Shown: positions 4,744-63,388 of the stretch, one piece after another
Position numbering within the stretch: position 1 is the first letter of the stretch
How the letters are laid out: every line of letters begins with the position of its first letter
From: Pigmentiphaga sp. NML030171
GTDB taxonomy: Bacteria; Pseudomonadota; Gammaproteobacteria; Burkholderiales; Burkholderiaceae_B
Assembly: GCF_002188635.1 (NCBI RefSeq)
Contig: NZ_NINX01000021.1
Span: forward strand, 124,001-188,000
DNA length: 64,000 bases
Reading direction: 5' to 3'
Notes under the pieces: model-generated
What the model saw: only the letters and a program-made list of their open reading frames with translations
Told to the model about the DNA's origin: nothing
The model's database searches: none
Position numbers and translations under genes: made by a program

Positions 4744-4990
4744 CCCCCCCCTACGCGCTTACGCGCGCCCCCCAGGGGGCGAAACCGGCGGACTGGCGGA
4801 GCCAGATCCGCGGTTTCCTGGGTCTAGTACCCGTTTCTTGGGTTGTGGCGCCGGTGCTTCGCTGGCTGCCAGCGAAGCACCGGCGCCACAACCCAAGATA
4901 AAGGAACTAGACCCAGGATGCGGTGGATCCGGCTTTGCCGGTCCACCCGCATCGCCCCCTTGAGGGGGCGCCCGAAGGGCGTAGGGGGTG
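4744..4990. repeat. Intergenic repeat family 1, copy B (intact)
   Basis: This element fills the gap between the convergent GH31-like and NlpE-like genes. It has a ccccctacgcgc/agggggcg hairpin at its left end, the gaaaccggcggactggcgg flank, an outer inverted repeat CCTGGGTCTAGT (from 4817, partner ending 4917), a perfect inner palindrome at 4837-4897, and the gcatcgcccccttgaggggg tail. Its position suggests a role as a bidirectional terminator, but the size and the perfection of the inner arms exceed what a terminator needs. Confidence 0.85.
4837..4897. repeat. Perfect 61-bp palindrome inside repeat copy B
   Basis: Two 30-base arms starting CTTGGGTTGTGGCGCC are exact reverse complements around a single central base. 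The corresponding arms in copy A differ at several positions, so this copy is either recent or maintained. Confidence 0.95.
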
Positions 4991-4996
4991 GGCCTA

Positions 4997-15160: not shown

Positions 15161-15265
15161 CCCAGGGCACAGCGGATCCGGCTCCGCCGGTCCGCCAGTG
15201 CCGCCCCCTGGGGGGCGCGCGCAAGCGCGTAGGGGGGAGCCCTCCTGTCAGCGCGTAGGGGGGGG
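15161..15265. repeat. Intergenic repeat family 1, partial copy C
   Basis: This truncated relative of the copies at 1-275 and 4744-4990 keeps only the right half: cccagg, gcggatccggctccgcc, a gccgccccctggggggcgc hairpin and the gcgcgtagggggg tail. The tail is present twice (about 15225 and 15251). The last codons and stop of the DUF815 gene lie inside the second tail. Confidence 0.7.
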
Positions 15266-27058: not shown

Positions 27059-27080
27059 GGGGGTTTCTGGTTCTTGAGAC

Positions 27081-27307
27081 GGCTGTGTCCGGGGCGGCCG
27101 CCGTGGGGCGCAGAGGAGCCGGTCCCGGCCTTGCCGGGACTTCCCGGTGTCGGGGCGCTTGGCGGGGCGGGCGCAGAACTCGCGCGGGGACAGTCCACTG
27201 GACTGTCCCTACTGCCGCGCTCAAACAGCTGCGCCCTTGCTTCCCCGCCAAGCGCCCCGACACCGGCGGCTCCAATGCGCCCCACGGCGGCCGCCCCGGA
27301 CACAGCC
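27081..27307. repeat. Long structured palindrome, copy L1
   Basis: Outer arms 27081-27112 and 27276-27307 are perfect 32-base complements (GGCTGTGTCCGGGGCGGCC...). The left side then holds a conserved small hairpin (GTCCCGGC/GCCGGGAC). Inner arms 27146-27167 and 27243-27264 are perfect (GGTGTCGGGGCGCTTGGC...). The core has helices GGGCGCAG/CTGCGCCC and GCGCGG/CCGCGC and an apical GGGACAGTCC/GGACTGTCCC stem. TTCTTGA lies just outside the left arm, as in copies L3 and L4. It occupies most of the 366-base gap between the LysR start and the cytochrome stop; nothing else is seen there. Confidence 0.9.
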
Positions 27308-38968: not shown

Positions 38969-39039
38969 CCTGGGCTGAATCGCCATGCATGGCATCCATG
39001 ATGACTGGCCTCAACTGCAGGGACTGAGATATTGAACCG

Positions 39040-39280
39040 TCCTTGACCGGTGGGGTGGGGCGGCCCGCGGTGGGGCGCAGCGTAGCCGGTCCCGCTGCGC
39101 GGGACTTCCCGGAGTTGGCGCGGTTGGCGGGGCGGGCGTGAACTCGCGCGGGGACAGTCCCCCGGACTGTCCCTACTGCCGCGCTCAGACATGCACGCCC
39201 TTGCTTCCCCGCCAACCGCGCCAACTCCGGCGGCTCCGAATGCGCCCCACCGCGGGCCGCCCCACCCCACCGATCAAGGA
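39040..39280. repeat. Long structured palindrome, copy L2
   Basis: Outer arms 39040-39079 and 39241-39280 are 40-base complements with one mismatch. Inner arms 39109-39132 and 39207-39230 are perfect over 24 bases (CCGGAGTTGGCGCGGTTGGC...). The conserved small hairpin is GTCCCGC/GCGGGAC; core helices are GGGCGTG/CACGCCC and GCGCGG/CCGCGC; the apical stem is GGGACAGTCC/GGACTGTCCC. Arm sequences differ from L1 and L3 while pairing is kept. It lies in the 461-base gap between dctM and the Rieske gene. The rest of that gap (39281-39429) holds the Rieske promoter region and no recognised gene. Confidence 0.9.
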
Positions 39281-39429
39281 CTACGGCGGTGATGAGTGAC
39301 GCCCATAATTGAATGGGATTTGCATCAAAAGTGGGATGATGAGTTCCAGCCATGTGGCTATGCCCCGGCCGGGCAAGTCCTTACCATCGCTCCGTCGCCC
39401 CAAGTTCGCGAGGCGTATTGGAGAAAACG

Positions 39430-49099: not shown

Positions 49100-52000
49100 A
49101 TGAGTGCAGCCATCCGTTCCCCGCGCAAGGTTCGCGGGCCCGTTTCCGCGGTGCCCCAGGAGCGTTGGAGTCCCCGTCCGCTGGCGCTGGCGCTCGCCCT
49201 GGTGGGCACCAGCGCGGGCGCCCAGATGCCGACCGGCTTCAATCCCGTGCAGGGCAGCGTGCTCGCGCCCGTCACGAGCGGCAACGTCATGTCCATCCAG
49301 CAACAGAGCGATCGCGCCATCATCGAGTGGAGCACGTTCTCGATCGGCGCGGGCAACGCGGTCCGCTTCCTGCAGCCCGGCGCCTCCAGCATCGCATTGA
49401 ACCGGGTGCTGGGCGGGGACCTGTCGCGCATCTCGGGAGATCTGTCGGCCAATGGCCGGATCTTCCTGATCAATCCGGCGGGCGTGCTGTTCGGGCAGGG
49501 CTCCAAGGTGGAGACCGGCGGCCTGGTCGCCTCGACGCTCAACATCTCCAATGCCGACTTCATGGCGGGCCGCTTCCGGTTCGAGCGCGACGACGCCAAC
49601 ACCGCTTCGGTGACGAACCTGGGCACCCTGACCGCGCCGGGATCGACCATCGCGCTGATGGCCGCTACCGTGGTCAACGGCGGCGAAGGCAAGATCGTGG
49701 CCGACGGCGGCACCGTGGGGCTGGTGTCGGCCCGCCAGGTGACGCTGGACTTCCAGGGCGACGGACTGACCACGTTCCGCTTCGCGCCGGACGCCGGCGC
49801 CAGCATGGCCGCGGTCACCAACGAAAGCGGCGCGGTGCTCCAGGCCAACGGCGGCCGGGTGGCGGTGCTGGCGGATTCGGCCCAGGTGGCGCAGCGCGTG
49901 GTCAACCAGCAGGGCACGATCCGGGCACAATCGCTGACCGCGCGCAACGGCGAGATCATCCTGGGCGCATCCGGCCAGGCGGACGTGGCGGTGGGCGGCA
50001 CGCTGGACGTGTCGGGCACCGCGGGGGCGTCGGGCGGCACCCTCCGCATCGAGGCCGGCGGCATCCGGACCGGATCGGCGCGCCTGGATGCCTCCGGCGA
50101 CGGCGGCGGCGGGCACATCGAACTGGCGGGCCGGCGGGCGGTCACCATGGACGAGGGCAGCCGCCTGCACGCGGATGCGCTGGCCGCGGGCAACGGCGGC
50201 ACCGTCGACATCGGCGCCCCGGGGCTGCATGCGGCGGGCATCATGACGGCGAATGCCGCGGGCGACGGAGCGGGCGGCGTCGTCAAGACGTCGGGCAGCG
50301 TGGTCGAGGTCGGGGCGGCCCATGTCTCGGCGGCCGGCGCCGGCAGCGGCGCCAACGGCAAATGGACGATAAGCTCGCAGGGCGACGTGACCGTGGGTAC
50401 CGCGCCGGCGGCACGGCCCGCCACCGAGGTGTCCGTGGCCGGTGACGACAGCCGGGTATCCGGCGGCGCCGTGGGCGAAGCGCTGGGGAACCGTACCGAT
50501 GTGACCGTGGCCGCCACCGGCTTCGCGCTCGACGGCGGCCGGGGGCAGAGCGGCAACGTGGTGTTCGAGAGCGACGCGAGCGTGGTCAAGACCCAGGGCG
50601 GCACTTCCACCCTGCGCGTGGACGCCATGCGCAACATCGACATGTGGAACGGCGCGCGCATCGAGTCGCAGGCGGGCGCGCTGAACGTCGAGTTCAACGC
50701 CGATTCCTCGGGCAAGGCCGCGATGCGCCGGCCGGAAGGCGCCAGCGATTTCGTCGAGGAAAGCGGGGGCAGCATCGACGTGGAAGGCGCCACCATCGCT
50801 ACCCGGGGTGGCGACCTGCGCCTGTTCGGGCAAGGCGATGCCGCCAACGGCAAGGCCACCGGCGGCACGTCCTTCGTGAATGGCCGGGCGCAGACCCGCC
50901 GCGCCGGCATCTTCGTCGGCTGGAGCGACGTGTCGCTGTGCGCCGACGATGCCTGCTCGGCAGGCGGTTCGCTGGCCGCCGCGGGGGCCGGCATCACCAC
51001 CGTCGACGCGACGTCCGGCCGCGGCGTGGAAGGGGGCGAGGGCGTCACCCTCAGCGGGACCGGCGTGGCGGCGGGCGGCGACATCACGATAACCGGCCAC
51101 GGCGGCGTGGCGGCGGCGGGCGTACGGATAGACGGGCGCCGCGAAGGGGGCACGCAGCACCAGTTGAACGCGGCGGGCGACATCACCATCGTCGGCACGG
51201 CGGCCAATGCCACGCTGGCCGACAATCTTCCCGTGGAGGTCCCGGAAGCCGGCGTGGCGATCCGGAACACCACCTTGGCGGCCGGCGGCGACGTGACGAT
51301 CGACGGCAAGGGCTCCAACCTGGACGCGCTGACGCAGTCGCCCGACATCTTCGGCGTGCTGGGCTACGACACCATCGAGGCCGTCGATGGCGTGCACATG
51401 CTCGACACCCGGGTGCTGGCCGGTCCGCGCCGCGACATCCTGATCACCGGGGCGGCGGGCGGCGACGGCCTGCTCATCCAGAGCGACGGCGCCTCGGGGG
51501 CGACCTTCACCACCATCGCCGCGCGCGGCGTGCGCATCGAGAAAAGCGTCGAGGCCCTGGAGGCGCCGGGCGGGACGGCGCCCGACATCGCCACCGACGG
51601 TGGCCGCATACGCATCGCCGGCCGCGACAGCGACGTCTGGCTGGCGGGCGAACCGACCAAGGTGGGCGCGACGCTGCAGGTGGACGCCGGCAGCGCGGAC
51701 GGCCGGGGCGGCAGCATCGAGGTCACCGGACGCAACGTGGGCGTGCTGGGTGCCACCGCGCTGCTGGCCGACGGCGCCGGCGGCGGGGGCGACGTGACGG
51801 TGCGGGCCGAGGCCGTGGCGGCCGTGGACGATTTCGCGCGCGTGCAGGCGAACTCGACCGGCGCCGAGGGCGATGGCGGCAAGGTACTGTTGACGGGGCA
51901 GGATGGCCTGCGCGTCCACGGCTCGCTCCAGGCGCGGGGCACGGGCGCGGGCCACGGCGGACGGATCGAGACTTCCGGCGGCGGCGTCGACGCCAGCGGC

Positions 52001-55000
52001 GTCCGGGTCAATGCCGGGACCGTCACCGGCGCGGCGGGAAACTGGATCGTCGATCCCTATGACGTCCGCATCGTCCACGGCACCGGGCCGGGCGCGCCGC
52101 TGGCCGATCCTTTCGAGGCGGTGGCCGACACCACGATCCAGGATTCCAGCATCAACACCGCCCTGGATGCCGGCACGAGCGTACGCATAGGGACGGGGGC
52201 CGGCAGCGGCACGGGCGGCGACATCACCATAGCCAGCGGCGTGGATATCCGCCGCACGACCGGCGCGGCGCCGCTGGCGTTCGCGCTGGACGCGTACCGC
52301 GGCATACGAGGCGATTCGTTCAGCATCGTGTCCGAGGCGGGCGCGCTCGACCTGGCGTTCAACAGCAACGCAAGCGGCACCTTGTCGGGCGATCAGTCCA
52401 TCGCCTTCCAGAACGCGACGCTGACCACCAACGGCGGATCGGTCAGCCTGTATGGCCAGAGCGACCCGGTGGCGGGCAGCGCCAGCTCCAATCGCGGGCC
52501 GGCCATCCGGTTGGTGGACAGCGTCATCGACACGCGTGTCGGCCAGAGCGATGCCGGCGCCGGCGGGAACGTCCTGCTGCGGGGCGCGGGCGACGGGGTG
52601 GCCAGCGTGGACATCGAAGGCGGACGCATCGACGCGGCCAGCGGCAGCGTCACGGTGCGCGGCGTCTCTTCCAGTTATGGAGAGGGCGTGCAGATGACGT
52701 CGGGCAGCAGCGACGACACCATCATTACGACCACGTCCGGCAACATCGCCATCGTCGGCATCGGCGGCGGCGATTCGTCGACGGGCGCGGAAGGCGTCAG
52801 GATGGAAGGGGCGCACGTGCAGTCCGCCAGTGGCGACGTGGACGTGCGCGGGCTGGCGCGGGGGGCGGGCACGACCGCTTCCGGCGTGATCCTGGAGGAC
52901 TCTTCGCTGGTCGCGCAGGCCGGCCGGGCGCGCGTGGCGGGTCAGTCCGAAGGCAGCGGCGCCGGCATAGACCTGCAAGGCGGCTCGTCCAGCCTGTCGT
53001 CGCATGCCATCGATGGCCAGCAAGGCGTCGTCCTGCGGGCCGACAACGACGGCAGCGCCGATGCGATCGCGCTCGCGGCCTCGGTGCGGTCGGGTGCGTC
53101 GATCAACCTGCGGCCGGGCGGCGTCGATGCCGCGGGCAATGCCACCGACCACACGGCGACCCGGATTTCCGTGGGCGGGGCGGGCGGCAACGGGTTCTCG
53201 CTGTCGGACGCCGACATGGGGAACCTGGATGCGCCCAACGTCATCGTCGGCAGCAATACCCACGCCGCCGACATCTCGGTGGACGGGCCGGTGGCCACGG
53301 CCGGCAACCTGACCCTGCAGAACGAAGGAGGCGGGGCGATCGCGCTGGGCGACAACGTGACGGCCGGCACGCTGGCGCTGCTGGCGGGCGGCAACGTGAC
53401 CCAATCGCCCACCGCCGCGATCGCCGCGAACGCGCTGGCGGCCCGATCGGCCACGGGCGACGTCGTGCTGACCAACGCGGGCAATGCCGTGGCCACGGTT
53501 TCCGGCGGCGCGGCGGGCGACTTCCGCTACGTCGATGCCGACGGCATCACGGTCGGCAACGTGTCGGCCCTGGGCATGGACGCCGCGACCAACGGCGTGC
53601 AGACCCGGGCGCTGGATGGCATTTCGGCCGACCGCGCCATCGTGCAGGCCCGTGCCGGGAACATCACGGCCAATGCCGCGATTACCGCGCCGACCGCCAT
53701 CACGCTGCAGGCGGATGCCGGCGCCATCCAGCTCAACCGGACCCTGGACAGCGGTTCGGTGGGCCTGCTGGCGGCCGGCGCGATCGGCCAGCAGGCGGGC
53801 GCCGCCATCACCGCCGGCACGCTGGTCGCCCGTTCGACCGGCGCGAGCGTGACGCTGACGGACGCGGGCAACCGGGTCGGGATCCTGGCGGGCAGCGCGG
53901 CCACCGATTTCCGGTATGCGAACGCCGACGGCTTGACCCTGGGAAATGCCGCCGTCGTGGGCCATGACACCGCGGGCAACGTGCAGGCCGTTGCCGCGTC
54001 GGGGATCTCGGCCGATACGACGCAGATCGCGGCTCGCAAGGGCGATCTGGACGTCGCCGCCGCCGTCTCGGCCGTCGACCTGCTCAGCCTGCAGGCCGAC
54101 ACCGGGGCGATCGGAGTGGGTGCCGCGGTCCAGGGGCGCACGGTGGCGCTGCTGGCCGGCGGCGACATCACGCAGGCCGCCGCCGGCGCCATTGCCGGCG
54201 ACGCGCTGTTGGCCCGGTCCACGGCGGGCGACGTCCAACTGGCGGCGGGGAGCAATGACGTGCGTACGCTGGCGGCATCCGCCGCGGGCGACCTGCGCTA
54301 TCGCGGCAGCGGCGACCTGGCGGTGGCAACGGTGACGGCGGGGGCGCTGGACGCCAGCGGCACGCCGCAGACCGTCGCGGCTTCGGGCCTGACGGCCACC
54401 GATGCGATCGTCCAGGCGACCACGGGCAACCTGTCGGTCCAGGCGGCTTCGAACGCAGCCAACGGGCTGACCTTGCAGTCGGACGCGGGAAGCGTGCAAG
54501 TCGGGCAATCGCTGCAGGCGCGAACCGTGGCCCTGCTGGCCCGCGGAGACATCGGCCAGCAGGCCGGCGCCGGCATCACGGCGGACACGCTGGCGGCCCG
54601 GTCGACGGCCGGGTCGGTGACGCTGACCGCCCCCGGCAACGACGCCGGCGTGTTCGCGGGCAGTGCGGCCACCGAGCTGCGCTACGCGGACGCGAATGCG
54701 CTGACCGTCGGCGAGGCCACTGTCGCCACCCAGGATGCGGGGGGTGGGCTGTCGTCATCGACCGTGGCCGGTGCGCAGGCCGGCACGGTGCGGGTCGCGG
54801 CGCGGACGGGCAGCCTGACGGTCGCCTCGGGCGTGACGGCCACCGATGCCGCCAGCCTGCAGGCCGATGCCGGCGCCGTGGCCGTGAACGCCGCGGTGCG
54901 GGCCCGGACCGTGGCATTGCTCGCCACGGGAGGGATCACCGAATCGACGTCCGGCGGCATCGCGGCGGATGCGCTGCTGGCGCGTTCGACCGGCGGCGAC

Positions 55001-56287
55001 GTGCGGCTGGAGAACGGCGGCAACGACGTGCGCGCGCTGGCGGGCAGCGCGGCCGGCAGCCTGGCCTATCGCGGCACCGGCGACCTGGCCGTGACGACCG
55101 TGACGGCCGCCGGGCTGGATGGGGCGGGCGCGCCGCAGACGGTCTCCGCCTCGGGCGTGACGGCCGGCGATGCGTTCGTGCGGGCCACCTCGGGCAATCT
55201 GTCCATCGCCGCCGCCTCGGCCGCGGCCGGGGCGATGGTGCTCCAGGCGGACGCCGGCAACGTGACGCTGGGGCAGTCCGTGCAGGCCGCCACGGTCGCG
55301 CTGCTTGCCGGCGGCGACATCGGCCAGAATGCGTCGGGCTCGATCATCGCCGACGAACTGGCGGCCCGCAGCACGGACGGCAGCGTCGTCCTGGACCAGG
55401 CATCGAACCGCGTCGGCACGGTGGCGGGCGGGGCGCGTGGCGGGTTCGCCTACACCGACGCGGATGCCCTGCGCATAGGCGAAGTCACGCTGCCGACACT
55501 GGGCGCGGGGGAAGGCGTGGTGGCCGGCTCGGAACGAGGCATTTCCGCCGCCACCACGGTCGTGCGGACCCAGTCCGGCGACCTGACGCTGGATGCCGGC
55601 GTGACCGGCGGCACCGCCGACCTGGTGGCGGCGGCGCGCTTCCAGAATCCGGACGGCGCGCGCATCGATACTTCCGGGCGCTGGCGGGTATGGGCCGACA
55701 CCTGGGAGGGCGAGACGCGCGGCGGCATGGCCGGCTCGGGCACGCTGCCCAACCTGTACGGCCGCGCCTATGGCGCATCCATCGCCGACGCGGACAACCA
55801 CTTCATCTACCGGCAACAACCGACGGTGACCGTGACGCTGGACAGCGCCTCGCGGCCGGCCGGCATCGGCAATCCCGCCCTGGGCTACACACTGGAGGGC
55901 CTGATTCTGGGCGATACCGGAGCGGGCATCAGCGGCACGGCCGGCTCGGCCGCCACCGCGTCGAGCCCGGCCGGCACCTATGCCGTGACCGCGGTCACAC
56001 CCTTCGTCTCGGCCGAGGGATATCTGATCAACGTCGTGCCGGGCGTGCTGACCGTGAACAGCTACACCCTGCCCAGCGTGGACCTTCAGCGCGAGATACC
56101 GACCACCTATCTGTACGACCGGAACCTGGCCCCCGTGGCCATGTGCTTCGCCACCGGGCCGATCGCCGGCGACCGGGTCGAGCAGGCGGGCGACGTGCTG
56201 GCCCGGGAATGGTCCCGGGTGCGGACACGGCCGAACCTGAGCAACTGCGTGTCCACCGATCGCCGCAACGCCTGCTCGGATTTTTAG
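49100..56287 (+). CDS. Large TpsA exoprotein with TPS domain, six 128-residue repeats, MBG-like domain and C-terminal cysteines
   Basis: The 2395-residue protein has a signal peptide ending near SAGAQMPTG. The TPS secretion domain (about 45-280) carries the signature RIFLINPAGVLFGQGSKVE. A long beta-helical region rich in Gly, Ala, Asp and Thr follows. Six repeats of about 128 residues occupy about 1415-2180, starting with segments like VALLAGGDITQ. An MBG-type Ig-like domain lies at about 2233-2320. The tail has three cysteines (2349, 2383, 2392); the last two are nine residues apart and close to the C-terminus. H. influenzae HMW1 is held at the surface by a similar C-terminal disulfide, so cell anchoring is possible. 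AGGAG precedes the start. No toxin domain of the CdiA type is seen, which favours an adhesin role. Confidence 0.92.
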   Translation: MSAAIRSPRKVRGPVSAVPQERWSPRPLALALALVGTSAGAQMPTGFNPVQGSVLAPVTSGNVMSIQQQSDRAIIEWSTFSIGAGNAVRFLQPGASSIALNRVLGGDLSRISGDLSANGRIFLINPAGVLFGQGSKVETGGLVASTLNISNADFMAGRFRFERDDANTASVTNLGTLTAPGSTIALMAATVVNGGEGKIVADGGTVGLVSARQVTLDFQGDGLTTFRFAPDAGASMAAVTNESGAVLQANGGRVAVLADSAQVAQRVVNQQGTIRAQSLTARNGEIILGASGQADVAVGGTLDVSGTAGASGGTLRIEAGGIRTGSARLDASGDGGGGHIELAGRRAVTMDEGSRLHADALAAGNGGTVDIGAPGLHAAGIMTANAAGDGAGGVVKTSGSVVEVGAAHVSAAGAGSGANGKWTISSQGDVTVGTAPAARPATEVSVAGDDSRVSGGAVGEALGNRTDVTVAATGFALDGGRGQSGNVVFESDASVVKTQGGTSTLRVDAMRNIDMWNGARIESQAGALNVEFNADSSGKAAMRRPEGASDFVEESGGSIDVEGATIATRGGDLRLFGQGDAANGKATGGTSFVNGRAQTRRAGIFVGWSDVSLCADDACSAGGSLAAAGAGITTVDATSGRGVEGGEGVTLSGTGVAAGGDITITGHGGVAAAGVRIDGRREGGTQHQLNAAGDITIVGTAANATLADNLPVEVPEAGVAIRNTTLAAGGDVTIDGKGSNLDALTQSPDIFGVLGYDTIEAVDGVHMLDTRVLAGPRRDILITGAAGGDGLLIQSDGASGATFTTIAARGVRIEKSVEALEAPGGTAPDIATDGGRIRIAGRDSDVWLAGEPTKVGATLQVDAGSADGRGGSIEVTGRNVGVLGATALLADGAGGGGDVTVRAEAVAAVDDFARVQANSTGAEGDGGKVLLTGQDGLRVHGSLQARGTGAGHGGRIETSGGGVDASGVRVNAGTVTGAAGNWIVDPYDVRIVHGTGPGAPLADPFEAVADTTIQDSSINTALDAGTSVRIGTGAGSGTGGDITIASGVDIRRTTGAAPLAFALDAYRGIRGDSFSIVSEAGALDLAFNSNASGTLSGDQSIAFQNATLTTNGGSVSLYGQSDPVAGSASSNRGPAIRLVDSVIDTRVGQSDAGAGGNVLLRGAGDGVASVDIEGGRIDAASGSVTVRGVSSSYGEGVQMTSGSSDDTIITTTSGNIAIVGIGGGDSSTGAEGVRMEGAHVQSASGDVDVRGLARGAGTTASGVILEDSSLVAQAGRARVAGQSEGSGAGIDLQGGSSSLSSHAIDGQQGVVLRADNDGSADAIALAASVRSGASINLRPGGVDAAGNATDHTATRISVGGAGGNGFSLSDADMGNLDAPNVIVGSNTHAADISVDGPVATAGNLTLQNEGGGAIALGDNVTAGTLALLAGGNVTQSPTAAIAANALAARSATGDVVLTNAGNAVATVSGGAAGDFRYVDADGITVGNVSALGMDAATNGVQTRALDGISADRAIVQARAGNITANAAITAPTAITLQADAGAIQLNRTLDSGSVGLLAAGAIGQQAGAAITAGTLVARSTGASVTLTDAGNRVGILAGSAATDFRYANADGLTLGNAAVVGHDTAGNVQAVAASGISADTTQIAARKGDLDVAAAVSAVDLLSLQADTGAIGVGAAVQGRTVALLAGGDITQAAAGAIAGDALLARSTAGDVQLAAGSNDVRTLAASAAGDLRYRGSGDLAVATVTAGALDASGTPQTVAASGLTATDAIVQATTGNLSVQAASNAANGLTLQSDAGSVQVGQSLQARTVALLARGDIGQQAGAGITADTLAARSTAGSVTLTAPGNDAGVFAGSAATELRYADANALTVGEATVATQDAGGGLSSSTVAGAQAGTVRVAARTGSLTVASGVTATDAASLQADAGAVAVNAAVRARTVALLATGGITESTSGGIAADALLARSTGGDVRLENGGNDVRALAGSAAGSLAYRGTGDLAVTTVTAAGLDGAGAPQTVSASGVTAGDAFVRATSGNLSIAAASAAAGAMVLQADAGNVTLGQSVQAATVALLAGGDIGQNASGSIIADELAARSTDGSVVLDQASNRVGTVAGGARGGFAYTDADALRIGEVTLPTLGAGEGVVAGSERGISAATTVVRTQSGDLTLDAGVTGGTADLVAAARFQNPDGARIDTSGRWRVWADTWEGETRGGMAGSGTLPNLYGRAYGASIADADNHFIYRQQPTVTVTLDSASRPAGIGNPALGYTLEGLILGDTGAGISGTAGSAATASSPAGTYAVTAVTPFVSAEGYLINVVPGVLTVNSYTLPSVDLQREIPTTYLYDRNLAPVAMCFATGPIAGDRVEQAGDVLAREWSRVRTRPNLSNCVSTDRRNACSDF
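53340..55640 (+). repeat. Six tandem ~384-bp coding repeats in tpsA, with dimeric higher order
   Basis: Units begin at about 53371, 53759, 54142, 54527, 54911 and 55294 (V/L-ALLA-x-G-x-I/V-x-Q/E). Their spacing is 383-388 bases, or about 128 residues. Units 2 and 4 resemble each other (QQAG, SVTLT, AGSAAT, RYA). Units 3 and 5 share a different set (DALLARST, NDVR, YRGxGDLAV, VTAxxLD, PQTV). The array thus looks built by duplication of a two-unit, roughly 768-base block. Confidence 0.85.
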
Positions 56288-62826: not shown

Positions 62827-62910
62827 CGCTTATTTCTCCTCGGTCGTCGTCGGGGCGCCGGCGTGGTGCGGGGGTGATATCCATTGCGGAGAGATTCGAG
62901 TTCTTGACCC

Positions 62911-63158
62911 GGCCTTGGTTGGTGTGGCGGGGCCGCCCAGCCCCCGGGGCGCAGCGAAGCCGGTCCCGCTGCGCGGGACTTCCCGGTTTGGGTGGACCCG
63001 GCGGGGCGGGCGCAGAACTCGGGCGGGAACAGTCCCCCGGACTGTTCCTAAGGCCGCCCTCAAACAGCTGCGCCCTTGCTTCCCCGCCGAGCCCACCCAA
63101 ACCGGCGGCTCCGAATGCGCCCCGGGGGCTGGGCGGCCCCGCCACACCAACCAAGGCC
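62911..63158. repeat. Long structured palindrome, copy L3
   Basis: Outer arms 62911-62953 and 63116-63158 are perfect 43-base complements (GGCCTTGGTTGGTGTGGC...). Inner arms 62983-63006 and 63082-63105 pair with two mismatches. The conserved small hairpin is GTCCCGC/GCGGGAC, core helices are GGGCGCAG/CTGCGCCC and GGGCGG/CCGCCC, and the apical stem is GGAACAGTCC/GGACTGTTCC. The last two differ from L1 and L2 by paired changes. TTCTTGACC lies just outside the left arm. With L4 it makes up most of the 562-base gap between the orphan gene and the LysM gene, and no other gene is seen there. Confidence 0.9.
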
Positions 63159-63359: not shown

Positions 63360-63388
63360 GGATCAAGAACTCGATCCCATGCAATGTC

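Follow-up and report, generated by a model that had tools for sequence, protein, structure and literature searches.

A dispersed intergenic repeat of Pigmentiphaga and related bacteria with a Y-shaped fold conserved on one strand

Among the short, mobile-looking and intergenic palindromic DNAs of bacteria are MITEs and ERIC/NEMIS-type repeats, the copies of which share their arm sequences. Another kind of folded DNA is the attC site of integrons, which is recognised as a folded single strand by its shape and its extra-helical bases, and whose stem sequence is variable. REPINs, or REP-BIMEs, are mobilised by RAYTs, and compensatory changes on both sides of their hairpins are reported (PMC3116915). 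In Bordetella, the Bor repeats are described as REP-like hairpins of 26-30 bp (PMC1590033) and the Bor-2 repeat of B. bronchiseptica as 167 nt long, intergenic and present in 17(6) copies (PMC2267715).

The repeat described here, which we call the Y element, has four representatives (L1 to L4) in the window, that is, the whole stretch of 64,000 nucleotides analysed, which belongs to a genome of 5.86 Mb (G000). Like REPINs (PMC3116915), it is a dispersed, extragenic and non-autonomous repeat with paired inverted units and the potential to form hairpins in single-stranded DNA or mRNA. Unlike a short REP, its unit spans about 200-250 nt with several copy-specific stems; moreover, unlike in REPINs, its tail is AAGAAC-like, its paired units face outward, G000 has no Y1/RAYT match, and the presence of Y1 is not associated with that of the element. 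Bor, Bor-1 and Bor-2 (PMC2267715, PMC1590033) are likewise structured intergenic repeats of related bacteria; the Bor repeats differ as being REP-like hairpins of 26-30 bp (PMC1590033), and Bor-2, to judge by its published length and location, may be an earlier glimpse of the Y element. Unlike those of MITEs and ERIC/NEMIS repeats, the arms of the Y element differ between copies and covary; and it differs from attC in size and Y architecture, with no cassette array among the copies examined. A literature search, including passages of PMC3733652, found no description of the Y element.

The preliminary description of the window had reported four long palindromes with a shared internal layout and a TTCTTGA-like border, and all three statements hold. 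A repeat search recovers the outer arm pairs of all four, together with a second, nested arm pair inside L1, L2 and L3, which is different in sequence in each of them and absent from that description (Table 1). A pattern of the internal module matches three times, in L2, L3 and L4, against 0 expected from 100 shuffles, and L1 is missed because its P4 hairpin is longer. The border is the complement of an AAGAAC-like tail, which lies 3' of the outermost stem P1 and is thus seen from the other strand. Of the 54 copies in which P1 was parsed, 35 have AAGAA(C/A) at most 30 nt beyond P1 on its 3' side, 24 of them exactly at +6, as compared with 4 of the 54 on the 5' side.

Full copies are more than long palindromes, as they fold into a Y in which P1 leads to a three-way junction carrying the long stem P2 and the hairpin P4. 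L1, L2 and L3 follow a common plan on the minus strand (on the plus strand for L4), namely P1, a small internal loop, the short helix P1b, the junction, and then P2 and P4, with an AAGAAC-containing tail 3' of P1 that is altered in L2. P1 is about 20-65 bp long with its inner part P1b included, and P2 about 20-24 bp; P2 ends in GGGG/CCCC and is followed by an AAGCAA internal loop, P3, a second internal loop CUGUUUGAG/CGAGUU, P3b and the hairpin P5, both internal loops of this P2 arm being conserved. The P1/P2/P4 plan appears in the minimum free energy folds of 13 copies and, by eye, in most of 27 loci, a few of which deviate inside. In 52 of 54 copies from Pigmentiphaga and in 44 of 54 from elsewhere, the fold of the defined strand is more stable than that of the complement; in the other 10 copies from elsewhere the complement folds equally well or better. 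A kink-turn reading of the P3/P3b loop was dropped since the tandem GA is missing from some copies. On the minus strand the covariance model R2 gives L1, L2 and L3 178, 157 and 165 bits, as against 44.9, 38 and 33 bits on the plus strand; all three were in its training set, so that these scores measure strand and fit rather than independent discovery. Across the covariance models built here, L1 to L3 score 144-178 bits on the minus strand. L4 scores weakly either way in cmsearch (35.7 bits minus, 23.4 plus), and its strand was assigned by eye from P4 and the tail; by eye it appears to be an internally deleted relative that keeps P1, P4 and the tail.

Table 1. Features of the four elements in the window (window positions; arm identities from the inverted-repeat search)
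Feature	Position	Strand	Basis
L1 3' tail UCUCAAGAAC (on + = GTTCTTGAGA)	27070..27079	-	sequence and tail-position statistics
L1 full Y-shaped element, P1 arm to arm	27081..27307	- (folded strand)	arms, fold, R2 score
L1 outer arms	27081-27121/27267-27307		41 nt, 95%
L1 modelled core (P1b, P2, P3, P3b, P5, P4)	27115..27273	-	covariance model
L1 hairpin P4	27122..27140	-	sequence, fold
L1 stem P2 enclosing P3/P3b/P5	27144..27266	-	repeat search, fold
L1 nested arms (arms of P2)	27144-27167/27243-27266		100%
L2 full element, core 39082-39237, altered tail UUCAAUAUC	39039..39281	-	arms; 157.1 bits
L2 outer arms	39039-39079/39241-39281		41 nt, 98%
L2 nested arms	39109-39132/39207-39230		100%
L3 3' tail, GTTCTTGACC on +	62900..62909	-	sequence
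L3 full element, core 62956-63112	62911..63158	-	arms; 165 bits
L3 outer arms	62911-62953/63116-63158		43 nt, 100%
L3 nested arms	62983-63006/63082-63105		92%
L4, apparently an internally deleted copy (P1, P4, P2 3'-strand remnant), outward from L3	63231..63359	+	arms; strand by eye
L4 outer arms	63231-63275/63315-63359		45 nt, 93%
L4 tail AAGAAC	63365..63370	+	sequence

The four loci are not the whole set, and a search of the genome and its relatives for further copies, as had been proposed, finds pairing elements well beyond them: one motif gave 63 matches across 10 of 11 genomes of the genus, 13 of them in G000, and no match in the draft G010. The named loci that bear the motif belong to Pigmentiphaga, Alcaligenaceae SAGV5 and the MAG 67-32. 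With covariance searches, whose E-values come from a shortened calibration, the element is found in 58 of 151 genomes of the family and 24 of 43 sampled genera (model R1, G000 included; the other 93 genomes gave no R1 match), in 38 of 300 genomes and 25 of 135 genera of the order (model R3, G000 included), and in 5 of 299 genomes of a phylum sample (R3), namely G000, one more member of the order and three from other orders of the class. Copy numbers per genome are lower bounds, with at most 19 candidates scored in the family search and at most 9 in the order and phylum searches, and 8 genomes of the family have at least 19 candidates. Two stretches of 200 kb hold 8 full copies (G043) and 7 matches at E up to 0.01 (G051); they were picked for known copies and give no unbiased density, and we infer dozens of copies in genomes such as these. 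Near-identical copies stand at several sites of G043. BLAST of L1 against plasmids, and of one distant copy against plasmids and phages, gave no match at E 0.001, though some may have been missed through divergence or the low-complexity filter.

For the arms, 64 elements were extracted and one truncated duplicate was left out; P1 could be parsed in 54 of the remaining 63, the other nine being six copies at contig ends, one hybrid, one interrupted copy and one failed P1 call. The two arms of a copy are on average 89% identical (lowest 71%), as compared with 55% between loci. Thus the locus-specific arms claimed in the preliminary description are real, though not absolute, since at 80% identity the P1 arms of the 54 copies form 25 clusters, of which the largest have 14, 7 and 4 copies. 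Outer P1 lies outside the covariance model and was assessed by these arm identities and clusters. For the core, 52 of the 54 copies were kept after removal of identical or N-bearing cores, 51 of them in alignment A1 (one P5 deletion left out) and 43 in alignment A2 (after removal of seven divergent rows and one with an insertion).

Nearly every modelled helix keeps its pairing by change on both sides. In the 43 Pigmentiphaga copies 97.7% of the cells are paired and 34 of 62 pairs have changed on both sides, with 363 doubly changed cells versus 95 in shuffles. In the wider set A3 from many genera (67 copies, 66 distinct), 95.3% of the cells are paired, falling to 41% when the partner is slid by one column, and 57 of 62 pairs have changed on both sides; its 1158 doubly changed cells compare with 328 in shuffles, and 0 of 500 shuffles are as high, a count that is inflated and no probability as both alignments hold related sequences and A3 is fitted to the model, so that what matters is the size of the effect. 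The covariation extends to the short inner helices P3, P3b, P4 and P5. Covariation in support of one conserved fold of one strand, the mark of a structured non-coding RNA, is therefore present in the Y element.

The mismatches, moreover, are not alike on the two strands. Counted as distinct sequence contexts in a strand-symmetric alignment of the DNA arms, G.U and A.C stand at 19:6 in P1 and 29:1 in P2, together 48 versus 7, with one-sided sign tests of 0.007 for P1 and 3e-8 for P2. P2 of the wider alignment gives 54:6; P3b/P5 there run in the opposite direction (12:20), for which we suspect misaligned columns. P1 has also 33 other mismatches in distinct contexts and 143 gap positions, the latter partly from trimming of the ends, and given these it is looser than P2. 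One strand, as RNA or single-stranded DNA, thus appears to be under selection to fold, less tightly in P1 than in P2; strand bias in mutation could contribute to the excess of G.U.

Comparison of orthologous loci with and without an element, likewise proposed beforehand, reveals copies gained or lost, collapsed and recombined. At the site of L3 and L4, where the flanks are 80-94% identical, G008 has no elements, G009 has just a short stretch with a tail-like CCGGATCAAG, and G003 and G006 carry a single collapsed hybrid, whose inner 18 bp between inverted repeats are flipped between the two (loci L156 and L158, at about position 2520), which is a natural hairpin-mediated inversion. The empty site L157 has no clear target duplication, and its flanks have diverged. 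The L1 site lies upstream of a gene that by eye is LysR-like. Here the elements of G000 and G003 are complete and differ in their arms, in flanks 94-96% identical; G008 and G006 have remnants that look like deletion products, and in G009 there is a hybrid with unmatched arms, of which the 5' flank and arm derive from a different locus; G004, G005, G007 and G010 have no element, but their upstream sequence differs and so they are not clean empty sites. The G008 remnant resembles the G000 arm and the 3' arm of G009 resembles the G003 arms, hence the two arm types are most simply explained by an exchange of alleles or copies through recombination. At another locus the structure is kept in four species, where mismatched and compensated versions of one pair coexist; these uncompensated mismatches, together with the unmatched arms of the G009 recombinant, indicate that pairing is not instantly restored. 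A miniature hairpin at locus L134 (578-628), resembling the outer P1 arms and the tail alone, is probably an end product of deletion.

Many copies are single and not paired. Where two copies lie closer than 700 bp, 18 of 22 pairs are outward with their tails out, 4 are tandem and 0 inward, a count from which L3/L4 was left out (equal strands in cmsearch, opposite by anatomy) and in which, among the weakest partners (35-40 bits), the strands of L183, L190 and L203 were checked by eye. The spacers of the two outward pairs examined in G051 are merely partly alike, and one long spacer between an outward pair (1.07 kb, G030) holds by eye a nitroreductase-type gene. With respect to the flanking genes, the folded strand runs with them in 18 copies and against them in 17, and 20 copies lie between convergent and 0 between divergent genes (n=55, counted by hand with a simple reading-frame caller; the remaining 8 of the 63 copies lacked a called gene on one or both sides). 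In three of the 20 convergent cases there is an overlapping frame on the same strand, which may be the true neighbour and would then make the counts 21/17/17. This gene context is a pattern of tolerated insertion avoiding promoters, and the near-random orientation makes a role inside host messages unlikely.

No partner gene came to light. As an obligatory partner RAYT/Y1 was rejected, with 0 PF01797 candidates in G000 and absence from 46 of the 58 element genomes; so was TnpB, with no match in G000 and absence from 43 of 58, and so was reverse transcriptase (RVT_1), missing in 21 of 58, G000 among them. Y1 and TnpB have no association with the element (Fisher p 0.84 and 0.55). Element genomes are enriched for RVT_1 (odds ratio 3.9, p 0.0001), which we read as confounding by mobile-element load. 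An all-against-all comparison of the neighbouring frames, the 20-kb stretches left out, was tried for a partner beside the copies and nothing recurrent stood out, the 20 largest clusters and 6 sequences examined looking by eye like common families and shadow frames; no autonomous transposon partner was recognised near the copies. At gathering score Rfam has no match in the window and none in the 18 distant loci scanned; the 20 loci scanned in the family give a single one, a tRNA away from the element. Sub-threshold Rfam matches of L3/L4 are mostly to miRNA hairpin models, the best being MIR1858 with 40.6 bits versus a gathering score of 137 (E 1.5e-5).

We hold with some confidence that L1 to L4 are copies of a dispersed, intergenic and non-autonomous structured repeat that folds as one single strand into a Y, and that a REPIN-like repeat of a new type is, on balance, the best reading of it. 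The REPIN trait of two close inverted units is present in the pairs just described. On the other hand, the GTAG/CGTC tag of the REP edge was seen at no P1 end by eye, the edges being AAGAAC-like in 35 of 54; many copies do have GTAG at the P5 bulge, which varies, however. By analogy, then, the Y element would work like a REPIN but without two of its defining features, the tagged REP edge and the RAYT. Each copy, or outward-facing copy pair, would spread in intergenic DNA, for which one particular strand would have to fold into the Y with the tail after P1; a putative trans-acting factor, presumably encoded elsewhere, would read the shape, the loops and the tail. The stem sequences could drift freely provided that they pair, and compensatory changes, wobble intermediates and recombination between copies would lead to the arms owned by each locus. 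The folded strand, as the candidate intermediate of mobility, might be single-stranded DNA at replication forks or a transcript, and the copies would move rather than merely be lost. It is a bolder and doubtful step to suppose that Burkholderiales and their relatives harbour a new class of mobile nucleic acid, a unit defined by its Y fold with a mover that is neither Y1 nor TnpB, possibly passing through RNA and reaching dozens of copies in some genomes.

Of the two alternatives offered in the preliminary description, structural selection is the better supported, and the other, in which one arm is copied into the other by template switching or hairpin repair and pairing is a mutational by-product, is not needed and seems improbable to us. 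The many paired positions at which the P1 arms of G000 and G003 differ within such similar flanks at the LysR-like site would suit it, and the 18-bp flip between G003 and G006 displays hairpin-related rearrangement. However, arm-to-arm copying treats the strands alike, so that G.T and A.C mismatches should be about equal on a given strand, and the G.U excess in P1 and P2 therefore favours selection on one folded strand; copying also fails to predict that the short inner helices covary; mismatches without compensation persist, as does a recombinant whose arms do not match; and the arm likenesses of G003 with G009 and of G000 with G008 point to allele exchange and not to new writing. More improbable still is a cruciform or a bidirectional terminator, for which dyad symmetry alone would matter: the location near gene 3' ends and the 0 of 55 copies between divergent genes agree with it, but dyad symmetry predicts neither the G.U bias nor the conserved asymmetric loops, mismatch counts are not symmetric in P1 and P2, and by eye the copies examined showed no U-tract following P1.

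A more serious rival, though we think it rather unlikely, is a multicopy structured non-coding RNA with a host function and its own transcript, perhaps two divergent ones from a central promoter, whose copies spread and are kept for use. The strand-specific covariation and the conserved internal loops are what it asks for, the outward pairs fit divergent transcription, and orthologous copies have kept their structure in four species for longer than one would expect had they been dead mobile copies, which could be a sign of use by the host. Against this, upstream sequences look to be shared within subfamilies alone with no common promoter by eye, the family genomes without a match include the same-genus draft G010, and copy numbers vary, with copies lost or collapsed at orthologous sites.

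The Y element is a structured element of unusually strong covariation, in more than half of the sampled genera of its family, with neither an Rfam family nor a description that we could find. It offers a natural experiment on the evolution of long stems in which selection acts on nothing but their pairing. It is also a marker of rearrangement, as its copies undergo recombination, collapse and inversion at orthologous sites. If the element is mobile, identifying its mover would reveal a further mobilisation system; if it is an RNA, it is a common one that has been overlooked. Several copies lie at contig ends of draft genomes, and the element may break assemblies.

Other repeats are seen around the elements. 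By eye, a hairpin of the type GGTTACTTT...AAAGTAAC follows P1 in 14 of the 18 copies examined from distant families (L181-L186, L188, L189, L191-L194, L197 and L200); this AT-rich hairpin, GGTTACTTTCTTTTG...CAAAAGAAAGTAAC and variants, may be a separate repeat travelling with the Y element. At four loci of G043 (L175, L176, L171, L178) frequent short palindromes of the form GCCACCCACAAGGGGTGGCGCTACA, which have CTAC (GTAG in the complement) close to the end, flank the elements and look like ordinary tagged REPs beside them. The window itself has a different repeat family of the CCGGTCCACCCGCATCGCCCCC type at 1-260, 4744-4993 and 15187-15221, at most 94% identical to the reference, and similar stretches occur near some Y elements on other contigs. 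Finally, a long region of internal direct repeats at 50900-55300 of the window is possibly a large repetitive gene.
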